Shown: one piece after another, positions 10,148 through 20,354 of the stretch | Numbering within the stretch: position 1 is the first letter of the stretch | How the letters are laid out: each line of letters begins with the position of its first letter | Source: Candidatus Omnitrophota bacterium | GTDB taxonomy: Bacteria; Omnitrophota; JACPQZ01 | Direction: 5' to 3' | Assembly (NCBI GenBank): GCA_016190205.1 | Contig: JACPQZ010000044.1 | Span: 1-20,406 of the forward strand | Length of the DNA: 20,406 bases | Position numbers and translations under genes: made by a program | The notes under the pieces: generated by a model | Databases searched by the model: none | What the model was told of the DNA's origin: nothing | The model's input: only the letters and a program-made list of their open reading frames with translations

Positions 10148-10172
10148 GGGGTCAGGTCTTGCATTATCACAT
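10148..10172 (+). repeat. Left inverted end of the RAYT element
   Basis: A 25-nt terminus, perfectly complementary to 11048-11072. It is preceded by one further G. A variant with one mismatch occurs at 1663-1687. The transposase start follows 21 nt downstream without a recognisable Shine-Dalgarno. Confidence 0.9.
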
Positions 10173-10193
10173 TCCCTCTGTTAGAATTCCCCC

Positions 10194-11048
10194 ATGTCGC
10201 GTCCCCTCCGAGTGGAATTCCCCGGTGCGGTTTATCACGTCACAAGCCGGGGAAACGCCCGCCAGCCGGTCTATCGTGACCCCGCCGACCGGCAGACGTT
10301 TCTCGATGTACTCACCCAGGTCGTAGACCGCCATCGCTGGTTGTGTCATGCCTATTGCCTGATGGGCAATCATTATCACCTGCTCATCGAGACCCTGGAT
10401 GCCAGCCTCGCGGCAGGCATGCGCCAACTCAACGGGGTCTACACCCAGCGTTTCAACCGCCGGCATGAGCGCGTGGGCCACCTGTTTCAGGGACGGTATA
10501 AAGCCATACTGGTCGAGAAGGAAGCCCATCTCCTGGAGCTCTGTCGTTACGTGGTGCTCAACCCGGTACGCGCCCATCTGGTCACTGACCCATTGAAATG
10601 GACCTGGTCAAGCTTCGGGGCCACGGTCGGGAAAGCGCCAAAGCCCCCGTGGCTTACGACCGATTGGGTCTTGGCCCAGTTTGAAGGGGAAAGGCGCGCC
10701 GCTCAACAGCTTTACCACTCGTTCGTTAGGGAGGGTCTCGGGGCGGCATCTCCCTGGGAGAGGCTGCGCGGGCAGATCTACCTGGGCTCCGAGGAGTTCC
10801 TAACGGAAGTTAAAAAGGAAGACCGTCTGGATGAGGTGCCTTTTGAGCAGCAGCAGCCCCTGCGTCCGCCCTTAAAAGAACTTTTTTCCGCCCAGGGTGA
10901 GCGCACGCAGATCGCACTGAAGGCTTACAGGGACCATCGTTATAAGATGCAGGAGATTGCCCGTCACTTTGGAGTGCATTACACCACGGTAAGCCGGTGG
11001 GTGAGGGCCGGGGAAGAGGCGGTGGAGGAAAGTGGAAAAAGGGCCTGA
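10194..11048 (+). CDS. REP-associated tyrosine transposase (Y1_Tnp, HUH) with C-terminal HTH
   Basis: A 284-residue protein. Motifs in order: YHVTSRGN (H15), the HUH metal site GNHYHLLIE (H60, H62), GHLFQGRYKA, and the catalytic tyrosine helix CRYVVLNPVRAHLV (Y119). These are the RAYT/TnpA_REP hallmarks of an enzyme that nicks and joins single-stranded DNA at REP hairpins. The C-terminal third adds a helix-turn-helix (YKMQEIARHFGVHYTTVSRWVR, in two parts, about residues 245-270), seen in longer RAYTs and likely to recognise the element ends. The gene looks intact and potentially active. Its stop TGA (11046-11048) touches the first base of the right inverted end, and its 3' end overlaps the possible upstream GTG 11032 of miaB. 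Confidence 0.92.
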   Translation: MSRPLRVEFPGAVYHVTSRGNARQPVYRDPADRQTFLDVLTQVVDRHRWLCHAYCLMGNHYHLLIETLDASLAAGMRQLNGVYTQRFNRRHERVGHLFQGRYKAILVEKEAHLLELCRYVVLNPVRAHLVTDPLKWTWSSFGATVGKAPKPPWLTTDWVLAQFEGERRAAQQLYHSFVREGLGAASPWERLRGQIYLGSEEFLTEVKKEDRLDEVPFEQQQPLRPPLKELFSAQGERTQIALKAYRDHRYKMQEIARHFGVHYTTVSRWVRAGEEAVEESGKRA

Positions 11049-11072
11049 TGTGATAATGCAAGACCTGACCCC
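11048..11072 (+). repeat. Right inverted end of the RAYT element, overlapping the miaB start
   Basis: The exact reverse complement of the left end. It contains ATG 11056, the best candidate start for miaB. The preceding 15 bases (TGGAAAAAGGGCCTG) are also shared with the solo copy at 6841, so the mobile unit probably extends a little further in. Confidence 0.9.
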
Positions 11073-12387
11073 GAAGGTTTATTTGCAGACTTATGGATGT
11101 CAGATGAACAAACTCGACAGCGAGGTCATGCTGGGCCTGTTGGCCAAAGAGGGGTATCGCTGCGTTGGGCGGCCGGAGGAGGCCGACGTTATTCTCTATA
11201 ATACTTGTTCAGTGAGGGAGCACGCGGAAGACAAGGTCTGGAGCGAGCTGGGTTTCTTGCGAGCCCTCAAAAAAGAGCATCCGGAAAAGATCCTCGGCAT
11301 CACGGGCTGCATGGCGCAGAACGTGAAGGAGTTGGTTTTTAAACGCGCCCCGCATGTGGATCTCGTGGTGGGAACGGGTGAGGAACATCGCATTGCCGAG
11401 CTGATCGAGGGCATCCGGCAGGGAGAGCGACAGACGCTCGCGGTCGAGATTGACCACGGGCGCGCTCCTGACCCCGCCGTGTTTCAGACCACGCAGAGGG
11501 GGAGTCAGGTCAAGGCCTGGGTCGAGATCATGGCCGGGTGCGACCAGATGTGCGCCTACTGCGTAGTTCCCTTCACGCGGGGGCGCGAGCGCAGCCGACC
11601 GGCGAGGGACATCCTGGACGAGGTGAAGGGGCTCGCCGACCGCGGGTTTAAAGAGGTCACCCTCCTCGGACAGAATGTCAATGCCTACGGGCAGGATTTG
11701 GGGGGTGAGGAAGATTTTGCCGAGCTGCTGCATCAGCTCAATCAGCGTTCGGCCATATCCAGGATCAGGTTCCTTACGTCGCATCCCAATAATGCAACGT
11801 CCCGGCTCGCCCAGGTCATGGCCGAGGCAGAGCGAGTGTGCGAGCACCTTCATCTCCCCGTTCAGACGGGATCAGACCGGATCTTAAAACTCATGAACCG
11901 GGGCTATACCGTGGATGACTACCGCAGTCTGGTGGATGAATTCCGGAGCGCGGTTCCGGGCATCAGCATTACGACGGACTTGATCGTGGGTTTTCCGACA
12001 GAAACCGAAGAAGAGTTTGCCATGACCCTTGATCTTGTGCGGGAGCTTGAATTTGACTCCGCCTTCCTTTTTAAATATTCTCCGCGCAAGGGCACGGCGG
12101 CTTACTGGATGAGAGATGATGTCGAAGAAGAAATCAAAAAGAGGCGGCACCAGGAGATCCTGGCGCTTGTCCAGGAAATTTCCTTGAGAAAACACCGCGC
12201 CCAGGAGGGCAGTGAGGTCGAGATTCTGGTCGAGCGCCATGCGCGCAAAGGTCCGCAGACCTGGGTGGGCCGCGCCCGCGATTTTCGCAAGGTGGTTTTT
12301 AGAGGTGAGGGTTCGTACCTGGGTCGGTTCGTGAATGTGCGCATTACCGAGGGGAGGGTAGACCATCTACTTGGTACCCCGCAGTAA
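11056..12387 (+). CDS. miaB: MiaB tRNA-2-methylthio-N6-isopentenyladenosine synthase
   Basis: This radical-SAM enzyme adds a methylthio group to i6A37 of tRNAs reading U-initial codons. From ATG 11056 it has 443 residues, full length. The N-terminal domain has three cluster cysteines, C15 (TYGCQMN), C51 (NTCSV) and C85 (TGCMAQ). The radical-SAM site CDQMCAYC gives C162, C166 and C169. The C-terminal TRAM domain (EVEILVERHARKGPQTWVGRARD region) is present. The first six residues MQDLTP are encoded by the mobile-element end and KVYLQTYGCQMN is where family proteins normally begin, so the native ATG appears replaced. GTG 11032 is an alternative start. No well-spaced Shine-Dalgarno precedes ATG 11056. 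miaA, which makes the substrate, lies two genes downstream. Confidence 0.93.
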   Translation: MQDLTPKVYLQTYGCQMNKLDSEVMLGLLAKEGYRCVGRPEEADVILYNTCSVREHAEDKVWSELGFLRALKKEHPEKILGITGCMAQNVKELVFKRAPHVDLVVGTGEEHRIAELIEGIRQGERQTLAVEIDHGRAPDPAVFQTTQRGSQVKAWVEIMAGCDQMCAYCVVPFTRGRERSRPARDILDEVKGLADRGFKEVTLLGQNVNAYGQDLGGEEDFAELLHQLNQRSAISRIRFLTSHPNNATSRLAQVMAEAERVCEHLHLPVQTGSDRILKLMNRGYTVDDYRSLVDEFRSAVPGISITTDLIVGFPTETEEEFAMTLDLVRELEFDSAFLFKYSPRKGTAAYWMRDDVEEEIKKRRHQEILALVQEISLRKHRAQEGSEVEILVERHARKGPQTWVGRARDFRKVVFRGEGSYLGRFVNVRITEGRVDHLLGTPQ

Positions 12388-13222
12388 AGTCGCTCTTGTT
12401 GGGTTTTTCCTCGCGCTCACCTGGCTTGCGCTGGGTGCTCCGGATAAGGCCTTTTCCTACAAAAGCTCCGTCGGCGGACGCGAGGAACGCGCGGAGCGAA
12501 AAGAGAAAGGAAGCAAGGGCGCCCGCGCCCTCTACGCGCGCGTGCATCAGGCGTATCTGGCCGGGGATTTTAAACGGGTTGTCGAAGAAGCCAATCTTTA
12601 TCTGGAGCGCGATGCGCGCGATCGCCGCGCGGATGAGGTGCTCCACCTGCGCGCCTTGGCGCGTCTTTCGAACGGCGAGACCCGTCTCGCGCGCGAGGAT
12701 CTACTGCACCTAAAGGATTTTTACCCCAAGAGCGGGCGCCGGGACCAGGTCTATCTGGATCTCGGGCAGTGTTATGCGCTGGAGGGAGAGAATGGCCAGG
12801 CCATCAATATTTGGAAGCAGGGTTTGCTCGAGCACCCTTCCACTCCCTACCGGGTTCTTTATCTGGACCGCCTCGCCCGCGCGCATGCAACCCGCGGAGA
12901 ATTTAGCGAGGCCCGCCGCTATTTTGAAGAGGTCACGCGGGTCAATCCGCAGAGCGCCGAGGCGCTTAAGGCGCGCAAGCTCCTTCAGGAGAACGAACTT
13001 TATTTTACCGTGCAGGTGGGATCTTTTTCGCAGGCAAACAACGCCAACAAGCTCATCGAGGAGCTCAGGGCGCTCGGTGTAGATCCCGAGCTGTCAACGG
13101 TCGCGCGCGGCTCCCGCACGCTCTACCGCGTCCGTGTAGGGCGCTTTGACGCACGGACCGACGCAGAGCGCCTCGCCTCCCGCCTCCGGCGCCAAGGATA
13201 TTTGACAAAAATATTTCCATAA
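12371..13222 (+). CDS. Exported TPR-SPOR domain protein
   Basis: A 283-residue protein from TTG 12371, overlapping miaB by 17 nt in another frame; GGGAGG at 12352-12357 is 13 nt upstream, rather long. A signal peptide or anchor is clear (VALVGFFLALTWLALGAPD, residues 7-25). Residues about 50-200 are TPR-like helical repeats (LYARVHQAYLAGDFKRVVEEANLYL, in pairs; YLDLGQCYALEGENGQAINIW; LARAHATRGEFSEARRYFEEV). The C-terminal SPOR domain, about 208-283, reads YFTVQVGSFSQANNANKLIEEL and LYRVRVGRFDARTDAERLASRL. SPOR domains bind denuded septal peptidoglycan, so a role in envelope or division-site maintenance is likely. Two adjacent stops (TAATAG) precede the heptamer arrays. Confidence 0.85.
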   Translation: MVPRSKVALVGFFLALTWLALGAPDKAFSYKSSVGGREERAERKEKGSKGARALYARVHQAYLAGDFKRVVEEANLYLERDARDRRADEVLHLRALARLSNGETRLAREDLLHLKDFYPKSGRRDQVYLDLGQCYALEGENGQAINIWKQGLLEHPSTPYRVLYLDRLARAHATRGEFSEARRYFEEVTRVNPQSAEALKARKLLQENELYFTVQVGSFSQANNANKLIEELRALGVDPELSTVARGSRTLYRVRVGRFDARTDAERLASRLRRQGYLTKIFP

Positions 13223-13231
13223 TAGCAAGAA

Positions 13232-13284
13232 ACCAGAAACCAGTAACCAGTTACCAGATAGATACCAGAAACCAGATACCAGGT
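13232..13284 (+). repeat. Heptamer array, left arm (ACCAGNN units)
   Basis: Seven units of consensus ACCAGNN (e.g. ACCAGAA, ACCAGTA, ACCAGTT) run in strict 7-nt phase, broken once by AGAT at 13260-13263. They follow directly after the SPOR gene. The reverse-complement consensus is that of the right arm at 13357-13415. Confidence 0.9.
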
Positions 13285-13288
13285 CCGT

Positions 13289-13344
13289 ACTTCGAACTTC
13301 GAACATCGACCTTCGAAGTCCGCAGTTCGAGGTTCGATGTCCGA
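13289..13344 (+). repeat. Heptamer array, centre (NNTTCGA units)
   Basis: Eight uninterrupted units in exact 7-nt phase: ACTTCGA twice, ACATCGA, CCTTCGA, AGTCCGC, AGTTCGA, GGTTCGA, TGTCCGA. Because TTCGA-type cores are near-palindromic, the array is partly self-complementary and could cap the hairpin formed by the flanking arms. Confidence 0.9.
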
Positions 13345-13356
13345 TCGTCTGTTTCG

Positions 13357-13415
13357 TCTGGTTTCTGGTATCTGGTATCTGGTCTCTTCTGGTTTCTGGA
13401 AACTGGTATCTGGTT
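13357..13415 (+). repeat. Heptamer array, right arm (WCTGGNN units)
   Basis: Eight units such as TCTGGTT, TCTGGTA and ACTGGTA, broken once by a 3-nt TCT at 13385-13387. They are the inverted counterpart of the ACCAGNN array, so the three arrays together could form a stem-loop of about 180 nt just upstream of miaA (ATG 13425). Confidence 0.9.
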
Positions 13416-13424
13416 ACTTAGGAC

Positions 13425-14354
13425 ATGCTTTCATCCGTCTATTTCTTAATCGGTCCCACTGCCGCCGGCAAAACCGAGGCCGCGCTCTTAATAGCGCCGC
13501 GCTTGAATGCGGAAATCATTTCCGCCGATTCCATGCAGGTCTACCGGGGGGCTGACATTGTTACGGCCAAGCCCACTTCCGAGGAAAGATCCCGCGTCCG
13601 GCATCACCTTGTGGATATTCTTGAACCCGACGAGGAATGGAATGTGGCTGAATTCCGCGAGAAGGCCCTTGCGGCCATCCGGGACATTCTTAAAAGAGGA
13701 AAGAGGCCGCTGGTTGTAGGAGGAAGCGGCCTGTACATCCGAACCCTCATTTACGGAATCTTCAAGGGTCCGGGTAAGGACGACCCGTTGCGCGGACGGC
13801 TCCAGTATTCGAGTGCGCGAAAGGGCGGCCAGGAGCTCTGGCAGGAGCTTGCCGCGGTGGATCTCAAGGCCGCTCAAGGAATTGCTGTCCAAGACAGACG
13901 GCGCCTCATCCGGGCCCTTGAGGTATATCATAAGACGAGCGTCCCGCTCACGGTTTTAAAGGCCCGGCGTACTGGATTGAGCAGTGCGTATTCCCTTCAC
14001 GTGACAGGGCTTATGCGTCCCCGCGGAGAGCTATACGAGAGGGCAGAAGCAAGGGTGGAGGAGATGTTCCGCGCGGGACTGGTGGAAGAAGTGCGACTCC
14101 TCGTCGAGCGCGGCGTGGGGCTCACCCTCTCGCAGTGCATCGGTCTAAAAGAGGTGCGCGGATTTCTAAACGGCGAGTGGACTCTCGACGAGGCGTGTGA
14201 GCGGATGAAGCTCGCCACGCGGCACCTCGTCAAAAAGCAGCTCACCTGGTTCCGCGGGGAGAGCGGTGTTCAGTGGGTGACGGACGACGGAGCTAAACGT
14301 TTGGGTTCCGGCAATGAAGCCGCCCGCGCCGTCCTCCAAGGTTGGGGATTTTAA
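13425..14354 (+). CDS. miaA: MiaA tRNA dimethylallyltransferase
   Basis: This enzyme transfers the dimethylallyl group to A37 of tRNAs reading U-initial codons, producing the substrate of MiaB. It has 309 residues, the usual length. The P-loop GPTAAGKT is at residues 10-17, followed by ISADSMQVYRGADIVTAKPTSEE (in parts), HHLVDILEP, VVGGSGLYIRTLIYG and the downstream catalytic/swinging-domain motifs RRRLIRALEVY and LTLSQCIGLKEV. All core elements are present. The ATG lies 9 nt after the last CTGG heptamer, and AGGA at 13420-13423 is too close to act as a normal Shine-Dalgarno, so initiation may depend on the structured repeat leader or be weak. hflX follows after 9 nt, the common miaA-hflX linkage. 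Confidence 0.95.
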   Translation: MLSSVYFLIGPTAAGKTEAALLIAPRLNAEIISADSMQVYRGADIVTAKPTSEERSRVRHHLVDILEPDEEWNVAEFREKALAAIRDILKRGKRPLVVGGSGLYIRTLIYGIFKGPGKDDPLRGRLQYSSARKGGQELWQELAAVDLKAAQGIAVQDRRRLIRALEVYHKTSVPLTVLKARRTGLSSAYSLHVTGLMRPRGELYERAEARVEEMFRAGLVEEVRLLVERGVGLTLSQCIGLKEVRGFLNGEWTLDEACERMKLATRHLVKKQLTWFRGESGVQWVTDDGAKRLGSGNEAARAVLQGWGF

Positions 14355-19599: not shown

Positions 19600-20354
19600 G
19601 GGCGGGGACAGGGAGAATGAAAGAAGAGAAAGGAAAGATGAAGGAGGAGGGAAGAGAGAAGAGAGACGAGGGACGAAGGACGAAGGACGTAAACAAGATC
19701 GAACTGGACAAGCTCGAGCATGAGCGCCTGCTCGCCAAGGAAAAAGAGGCTGGTGAGTACCTGGATCGTCTCAAGAGGCTCCAGGCCGAATATGAAAACG
19801 CGCGCAAGCGGCTCGCGCGTGAGAAGTCAGAGTTTTTGATGTATTCCAATGAGGAACTTTTGGGCCGCATTCTGCCCGTCGTGGATAGTTTTGACAGGGC
19901 CCTCGCGCAGTTCAGTTCCGCTGCGGATCGGGTATCGGGTCTGGGGTTCAGGGGATCGGAACTCGAAACCCAGGACCCAAAACCCGAGCCCCAGACGGGC
20001 AGTCATCACGGCGGTCCTGCCATTTTAGAAGGCGTGCGCCTCATTCGCAAACAGCTGGAGGACGTCCTCCTGCAAAGCGGCTTGAAGCCCGTGGACACAA
20101 TCGGCAAGCCGTTCGACGCCCGCCAGCATGAGTCGGTCGCCCAGGTCCCGAGTGATACCGTGCCGGAGCATATCATCCTTGAGGAGGTCCAGCGTGGCTG
20201 GTTTCTGTTCGACCGGCTCTTGAGGCCGGCGCTCGTTAAGGTGTCGGCGGGTAGAGGAGGAGCGGGCGCGGATCGGGAAGCGGGAAGCGGGAAGCGGGAA
20301 GCGACGAACGAAGGACGAAGCACGAAGAACGGAGAACGAAACTCGTCATCATAA
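19596..20354 (+). CDS. grpE: GrpE nucleotide exchange factor, with three repeat-derived insertions
   Basis: GrpE releases ADP from DnaK. I prefer TTG 19596, which overlaps the hrcA stop (TTGA) and has GGAGG at 19584-19588 with 7 nt spacing; ATG 19617 is the alternative. The product has 252 residues against roughly 190-200 in typical bacteria. The long dimerisation helices (HERLLAKEKEAGEYLDRLKRLQAEYENARKRL, in parts) and the conserved ILPVVDSFDRAL are present, then LEGVRLIRKQLEDVLLQSGLKPVDTIGKPFDARQHE (in parts) and the C-terminal beta-wing. Excess length comes from three 7-nt-period DNA arrays translated in frame: a Lys/Glu/Arg-rich N-terminus, an insert SGLGFRGSELETQDPKPEPQ after DRALAQF, and a Gly/Lys/Arg/Asn-rich tail. 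All fall at disordered or loop positions. Confidence 0.93.
   Translation: MRAGTGRMKEEKGKMKEEGREKRDEGRRTKDVNKIELDKLEHERLLAKEKEAGEYLDRLKRLQAEYENARKRLAREKSEFLMYSNEELLGRILPVVDSFDRALAQFSSAADRVSGLGFRGSELETQDPKPEPQTGSHHGGPAILEGVRLIRKQLEDVLLQSGLKPVDTIGKPFDARQHESVAQVPSDTVPEHIILEEVQRGWFLFDRLLRPALVKVSAGRGGAGADREAGSGKREATNEGRSTKNGERNSSS
19614..19690 (+). repeat. Heptamer array in the grpE N-terminal region
   Basis: Eleven uninterrupted purine-rich units of consensus NNNANGA, drifting from AAGAAGA-like to AGGACGA at the 3' end (GAGACGA, GGGACGA, AGGACGA). The 7-nt phase is exact across all 77 bases. It encodes MKEEKGKMKEEGREKRDEG and following residues. Confidence 0.85.
19923..19992 (+). repeat. Bipartite inverted heptamer array in the middle of grpE
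   Basis: Ten uninterrupted units. The first half is GGGNNNN on the + strand (GGGTATC, GGGTCTG, GGGTTCA, GGGGATC). The second half is its inverted form, NNNNCCC (GAAACCC, AGGACCC, AAAACCC, GAGCCCC), with GGAACTC at the switch. The halves can pair as a hairpin. Confidence 0.88.
20274..20343 (+). repeat. Heptamer array in the grpE 3' end
   Basis: Ten uninterrupted units: CGGGAAG four times, then CGACGAA, CGAAGGA, CGAAGCA, CGAAGAA, CGGAGAA and CGAAACT. It encodes the C-terminal tail (GSGKREATNEGRSTKNGERN) and ends 8 nt before the grpE stop. Confidence 0.88.

Follow-up and report, generated by a model that had tools for sequence, protein, structure and literature searches.

Among the closest described counterparts of the arrays reported here is the intervening sequence (IVS) of the Coxiella burnetii 23S rRNA, which is short, has terminal inverted repeats and carries an S23/IVP gene (PMC4990558). 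Up to three GACAGAT heptads and one degenerate unit, varying among strains, precede that gene, the stem measures 28 bp (4 × 7), and the element, which is excised by RNase III, has been called selfish and of horizontal origin (PMC4990558). Heptanucleotide repeats have also been described as direct arrays, namely GGGAATC in Xanthomonas and Nostoc, for which no link to mobile elements was found (PMC4692102), and TAACTGA in Beggiatoaceae, for which no transfer mechanism was evident (PMC4679880). In REPIN-RAYT systems, a protein gene is bracketed by ends that are also found as many short palindromic copies (PMC3116915). The ACCAG element described below resembles the Coxiella IVS in its short length, its terminal inverted repeats, its PF05635-type gene and the heptads placed before that gene. 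Unlike the 23S rRNA IVS, the elements here lie between protein genes, dozens of them are gene-less, and several word families coexist in one genome; the ACCAG element is IVP-related and is not a classical rRNA IVS. With cyanobacterial STRRs and other heptanucleotide repeats it shares 7-nt words, an intergenic position and dispersal. As in REPIN-RAYT, the ends that enclose a protein gene, here that of IVP, recur in numerous short palindromic copies, but IVP is a four-helix bundle and not a Y1 transposase, and each end is an array of heptads whose word is specific to the gene.

The window analysed here, a whole stretch of 20,406 nucleotides from Candidatus Omnitrophota, holds one gene-less copy of this element, which we class as a derivative of IVP/IVS elements. 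It fills the gap between a gene for a SPOR/TPR protein and miaA, as follows:

12371 to 13222, + strand: upstream neighbour, TPR and SPOR domain protein, with its stop at 13222
13229 to 13283, + strand: A end of the element, made of AAGAA, four WWACCAG heptads, an 11-nt step (ACCAGATAGAT) and three heptads, a plan shared with 32 two-armed copies
13284 to 13356, + strand: core, a nested palindromic NNTTCGA array (8 in-phase units, 13287-13343) and a short linker
13357 to 13418, − strand: B end of the element, inverted WWACCAG heptads (7 plus 1 extra unit) with a 10-nt step and the outer flank TACTTA
13425 to 14354, + strand: downstream neighbour miaA (PF01715, E 6e-79), with its start at 13425

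When units and steps were recounted, the three period-7 arrays that an earlier note had seen before miaA (13229-13415) proved to be real: seven ACCAG units starting at 13232, eight in-phase units of TTCGA type, and eight CTGG units on the opposite strand (13358-13413). The outer two are inverted copies of each other around a different central heptamer, just as the note had described. Its central array of eight NNTTCGA stands as regards number and phase, but TTCGA is exact in only five units, the deviating three reading ACATCGA, AGTCCGC and TGTCCGA. The strict 7-nt phase that it had claimed over about 180 nt is interrupted by two breaks, the steps being 7,7,7,11,7,7 on the left (+4) and 7,7,7,10,7,7,7 on the right (+3); these breaks are of the size it gave, although their adding up to one unit is no rule across copies. 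Over 13229-13415, 122 of 180 positions match themselves at lag 7, compared with 32-48 at most other short lags, and the harmonics at lags 14 and 21 give 98 and 77 matching positions. None of 50 locally shuffled windows contained a period-7 array. Elsewhere in the window, two further heptad arrays (19631-19693 and 20263-20342; GGACGAA-type, and CGGGAAG ×4 followed by NNCGAAG) flank grpE and extend into the ends of its mechanically called frame.

Folded as RNA, the element is predicted to form a single hairpin at −99 kcal/mol, where shuffled sequences average −52 (z −11). With so stable a predicted structure in the gap before miaA, the arrays could be taken, as the earlier note had suggested, for a structured leader, or else for a terminator, of the miaA operon whose hairpin is under selection. 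This is extremely unlikely, as 29 miaA orthologues from the phylum all lack such an array upstream, near-identical copies occur at unrelated loci, and the element has no match in Rfam. The element may still have a secondary effect on miaA expression.

The genome-wide search that the note had proposed found 7-nt arrays in abundance elsewhere in this genome and in its relatives. The pattern ACCAGNNACCAGNNACCAG, which spans three ACCAG units, has 93+85 matches in the 1.65-Mb genome and its reversed version 3+6. From the targeted stretches that were read we estimate about 45 ACCAG elements, and 32 of them were captured with both arms. From the outside inwards, each arm begins with four WWACCAG heptads and, after a step of 10 or 11 nt, continues with three, a plan that is fixed across these roughly 45 copies. 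Among the copies with both arms fully scored, the step pair 11/10 is about twice as frequent as 10/10, and 11/11 does not occur. The two ends are unlike, with AA, TA, TT/AT between the ACCAG cores at one and AT, TT, AA/TA at the other; the positions outside the core, which had been called variable, thus follow a fixed order in most copies. The window element, including its TTCGA core, is 92-97% identical to four dispersed copies on other contigs (C33, C60, C67 and C15), and in a further window-type copy (L129, C67:11768-12070) roughly 130 bp of inserted GC-rich sequence interrupt the TTCGA core. Several ACCAG copies are lodged inside other heptad arrays (GTGATTC, CGGGAAG), and the most plausible origin of the nested appearance with several words is that different word families have inserted into each other in succession. 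Many contigs end in such arrays, which is usual for dispersed repeats. Taken together, the near-identical, short and dispersed copies, their terminal inverted repeats and the internal deletion of a coding element are those of a MITE. Target duplications around the ACCAG copies are not significant, with at least 7 bp in 2 of 26 (p 0.08), and symmetric terminal offsets tried for them gave no signal; age or variable ends may account for this in the genome studied here.

A second dispersed class, CGTGNNT, has 51+31 = 82 matches against 10 for its control (for example at C26:5916-6230 and C67:6359-6519); CGTGCWT is the word of the resident IVP on contig C21, and for CGTGRWT no resident IVP was found. 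In its exact form, the phase-broken ACCAG arm was found in seven stretches of GTDB genomes, sporadically, and once in viral contigs, in each case within unrelated simple heptad arrays. Read by eye, ACCAG/TTACTGG heptad arrays appear to lie within coding sequence at two loci of relatives (L051 in G144 and L049 in G035), in an ileS-like gene and near an N-terminus reading LLVTGYWLLVTGY.

Within the longest ACCAG element (C24:40217-40680) lies an intact gene for IVP, the 23S rRNA intervening sequence protein (PF05635/TIGR02436), and it is the only IVP gene of this genome with ACCAG arms. Like the window copy, this element sits between protein genes and not in 23S rRNA, and it has both the four-helix bundle gene and the stem-forming terminal inverted repeats of IVP/IVS elements. 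Its frame has a possible start, ATGAG, just beyond the outer heptads, from which it would run through the A arm. A sister copy on the same contig (C24:38972-39193), 94% identical over 223 aligned bases, retains both arms and the beginning of the gene and is missing the gene interior. If ACCAG arrays belong to an IVP family, another genome rich in them should own a related IVP in ACCAG arms. We ranked 145 genomes of the phylum by their ACCAG arrays, and G056, which has the most after the genome studied here, carries within such arms an IVP 61% identical to that of C24, the next best being 31% identical. The same genome also contains a short palindromic element (L045) that joins the upstream and downstream arms of its IVP element, including an odd GTACAG unit that belongs to the upstream arm. 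In G016, next in number of ACCAG arrays and with an assembly 85% complete, no IVP with exactly the ACCAG word was found. The link between word and IVP is present in two genomes, the one studied here and G056.

All five IVP genes of this genome adjoin heptads, each with a different word, although for the C16 gene they are clear downstream only. In these five and 29 other IVP loci we found period-7 arrays on both sides, while other tested periods gave 0-1 matches per arm; with miaA as the control, period-7 arrays numbered none upstream and two downstream. We then surveyed 107 IVP loci, 94 from 52 genomes of the phylum and 13 on plasmids, and applied one threshold to 214 flanking stretches of 200 bp and to 372 control stretches more than 400 bp away at the same loci. 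A period-7 array was present in 83.6% of the flanks and in 7.0% of the controls; at period 8 the flanks gave 12.6%, and at all other non-harmonic periods less than 4%. The median is about five heptads per arm, a count that varies with the extension rule used, and about 9 of the 107 loci, Pseudanabaena 7367 among them, have an array on neither side. Compared as inverted copies, arm words match at 0.75 within a locus and at 0.47 between loci, and the inverted match exceeds the direct one in 79 of 81 loci. The more identical two IVPs are, the more similar are their words (Mantel r 0.27, p≤0.0005), a correlation that co-inheritance of the gene with its arms alone could also explain. Since the words of different IVPs are as unlike within one genome (0.469) as between genomes (0.471), each word goes with its gene rather than with the genome around it.

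Plasmids of Cyanobacteria, Bacteroidota and Alphaproteobacteria also carry IVP genes with heptad arms: GGGAACA and GGGAAAA in Nostoc, GTGACAG in Anabaena, GGGTGTA in Calothrix, TCAGRAN in Trichormus, AAGGTTN in Riemerella, and GAGGACG-type heptads on both sides in Azospirillum. Heptad arms were likewise seen around the plasmid IVP genes of Geminocystis and Picosynechococcus, and in Gemmatirosa they look direct and not inverted. The comparison that the earlier note had drawn with the STRRs of cyanobacteria was a good lead. The ACCAG arrays are, as STRRs are, tandem heptanucleotides that are intergenic and multi-copy, and the GGGAACA, GTGACAG and GGGTGTA heptads around the Nostoc, Anabaena and Calothrix IVP genes are STRR-like, judged by the description of STRRs. 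A search for IVP in phages, with one query, gave no tblastn match. Two IVP elements (L241 and L244) lie within CRISPR operons: one is placed between cas10 and cmr3 in Picosynechococcus 7003 and is absent from PCC 7002, and the other, in Anabaena sp. 90, stands in the order cas6, IVP, cas4.

The bracketing of IVP genes bears on whether the ACCAG copies are REP/REPIN-like elements moved by Y1 (RAYT-like) transposases. Such a gene is present in the window (10194-11048, with a C-terminal HTH, within a unit at 10148-11072), there are three more PF01797 genes in the genome, four in all, and REPINs are likewise short, palindromic and dispersed. The window gene, the one we inspected, has instead its own unrelated 24-bp inverted ends (GGGGTCAGGTCTTGCATTATCACA) and no flanking ACCAG arms, so it is not enclosed by the ends of the dispersed copies as a RAYT gene is, and it is IVP genes that the heptad arms bracket. 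An origin of the ACCAG copies through Y1 transposases is accordingly highly improbable.

Evidence of mobility includes one plasmid site with a clean duplication, the only one of its kind, as other sites were too diverged. An IVP element occupies this site in Trichormus variabilis plasmid C and in a Scytonema plasmid, and the site is empty in plasmids of Nostoc linckia, Tolypothrix and others, with 97-98% identity around it. The insertion measures 428 bp, comprises arms and gene as one block and is accompanied by a 5-bp target duplication, GTAAT. In Brasilonema this site is occupied by a palindromic version without the gene, and in a Nostoc plasmid by a truncated version. Internal-deletion derivatives, and a filled and an empty site with a 5-bp duplication, are both observed.

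These observations have to be weighed against slippage, by which the arrays would be ordinary tandem repeats that IVP genes merely land beside or pick up. Slippage does act on them, as unit numbers change by exactly 7 or 14 nt between the window and C60 copies and between the Trichormus and Scytonema arrays. As the source of the arrays it is unlikely, given arms that are inverted on the two sides of nearly every locus scored, a break whose position is fixed in some 45 copies, whole elements that remain alike, cores included, at unlinked sites, and the arrival of arms and gene together in a single insertion. Another reading would make the heptads sites for a nucleoid or regulatory protein, with IVP in an architectural or regulatory role and not part of a mobile element. 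The ring shape of IVP homologues and the dispersal of sites with cognate words are in keeping with it, but the filled and empty sites with their duplication and the gene-less derivatives are the behaviour of an element, and each IVP of the same genome has a different word; we consider it very unlikely. Of the roles offered in the earlier note, a nucleoid-protein or recombination site came closest, in that the arrays form the termini of a mobile element; for templated synthesis, its other suggestion, we found no evidence. Its interpretation as a whole is partly supported.

We favor the reading that a gene-less, non-autonomous copy of an IVP mobile element lies in the window, with the arrays as its two ends, and, together with the following mechanism, give it a probability of roughly 0.7. 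Each IVP element family would have its own 7-nt word, here WWACCAG, repeated about five times per arm and inverted between the arms. An IVP ring would bind the heptad array of its own element, one heptad per subunit, by analogy with TRAP, whose ring reads spaced triplets. The solved IVP structures 2GSC and 2RLD have five chains per entry, and one heptad per ring subunit would be the simplest reading of five chains and about five heptads per arm. In the work cited in PMC10053308, 2GSC is given as five four-helix bundles. The net charge of the IVP core is only about +1, which we count against this explanation. The bound form is probably single-stranded or RNA, because the arms form a hairpin of RNase III type and the coding strand upstream of the gene is rich in AG and GG (in upstream arms, AG 330 against CT 63 and GG 191 against CC 35). 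This strand bias is easier to explain by recognition of RNA or a single strand than of duplex DNA, and a role of the upstream arm in translation start could also contribute to it.

An enzyme provided in trans would then insert copies of the IVP-bound RNA or DNA of the element at new sites, making a short target duplication, and internal deletion and the nesting of word families would give rise to short palindromic multi-word copies such as that of the window. Because IVP, a four-helix bundle, is not known to carry an enzymatic domain, the transposing enzyme is missing from this explanation. We considered a reverse transcriptase as the required partner and rejected it: no RVT_1 gene was found in this genome, and IVP occurs in 21 of 35 genomes with a reverse transcriptase and in 81 of 145 overall, that is, without association. 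IVP is homologous to Avd of diversity-generating retroelements (phrog_3206, E 3e-7; the match to NF033474 is below the cut-off), but in a genome lacking a reverse transcriptase the elements described here are not such retroelements.

Heptads before the S23 gene were already known in Coxiella, and a heptad rule that holds for IVP genes generally would be new. In the literature, with subscription journals mostly out of reach, we found no statement that inverted, gene-specific heptad arrays bracket IVP genes in general, nor that dispersed heptad arrays derive from IVP elements. More tentatively, IVP elements may form a widespread class that works by a word-and-ring code, in which the ring-shaped IVP of each element would read its own heptanucleotide, each arm holding about one copy for every subunit. 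This class may be the source of many heptanucleotide repeats, among them STRRs, TAACTGA and GGGAATC. Heptanucleotide arrays serve as strain markers and have been reported, unexplained, for decades; the tie to IVP gives them a likely source, and the functionless IVP/S23 family gains a candidate substrate, its own heptad array. If true, small mobile elements would include a large class in which the recognition word is specific to the gene and neither a nuclease nor a recombinase is encoded; the tie to IVP also makes it directly testable whether a seven-base word is read by a ring of five subunits.
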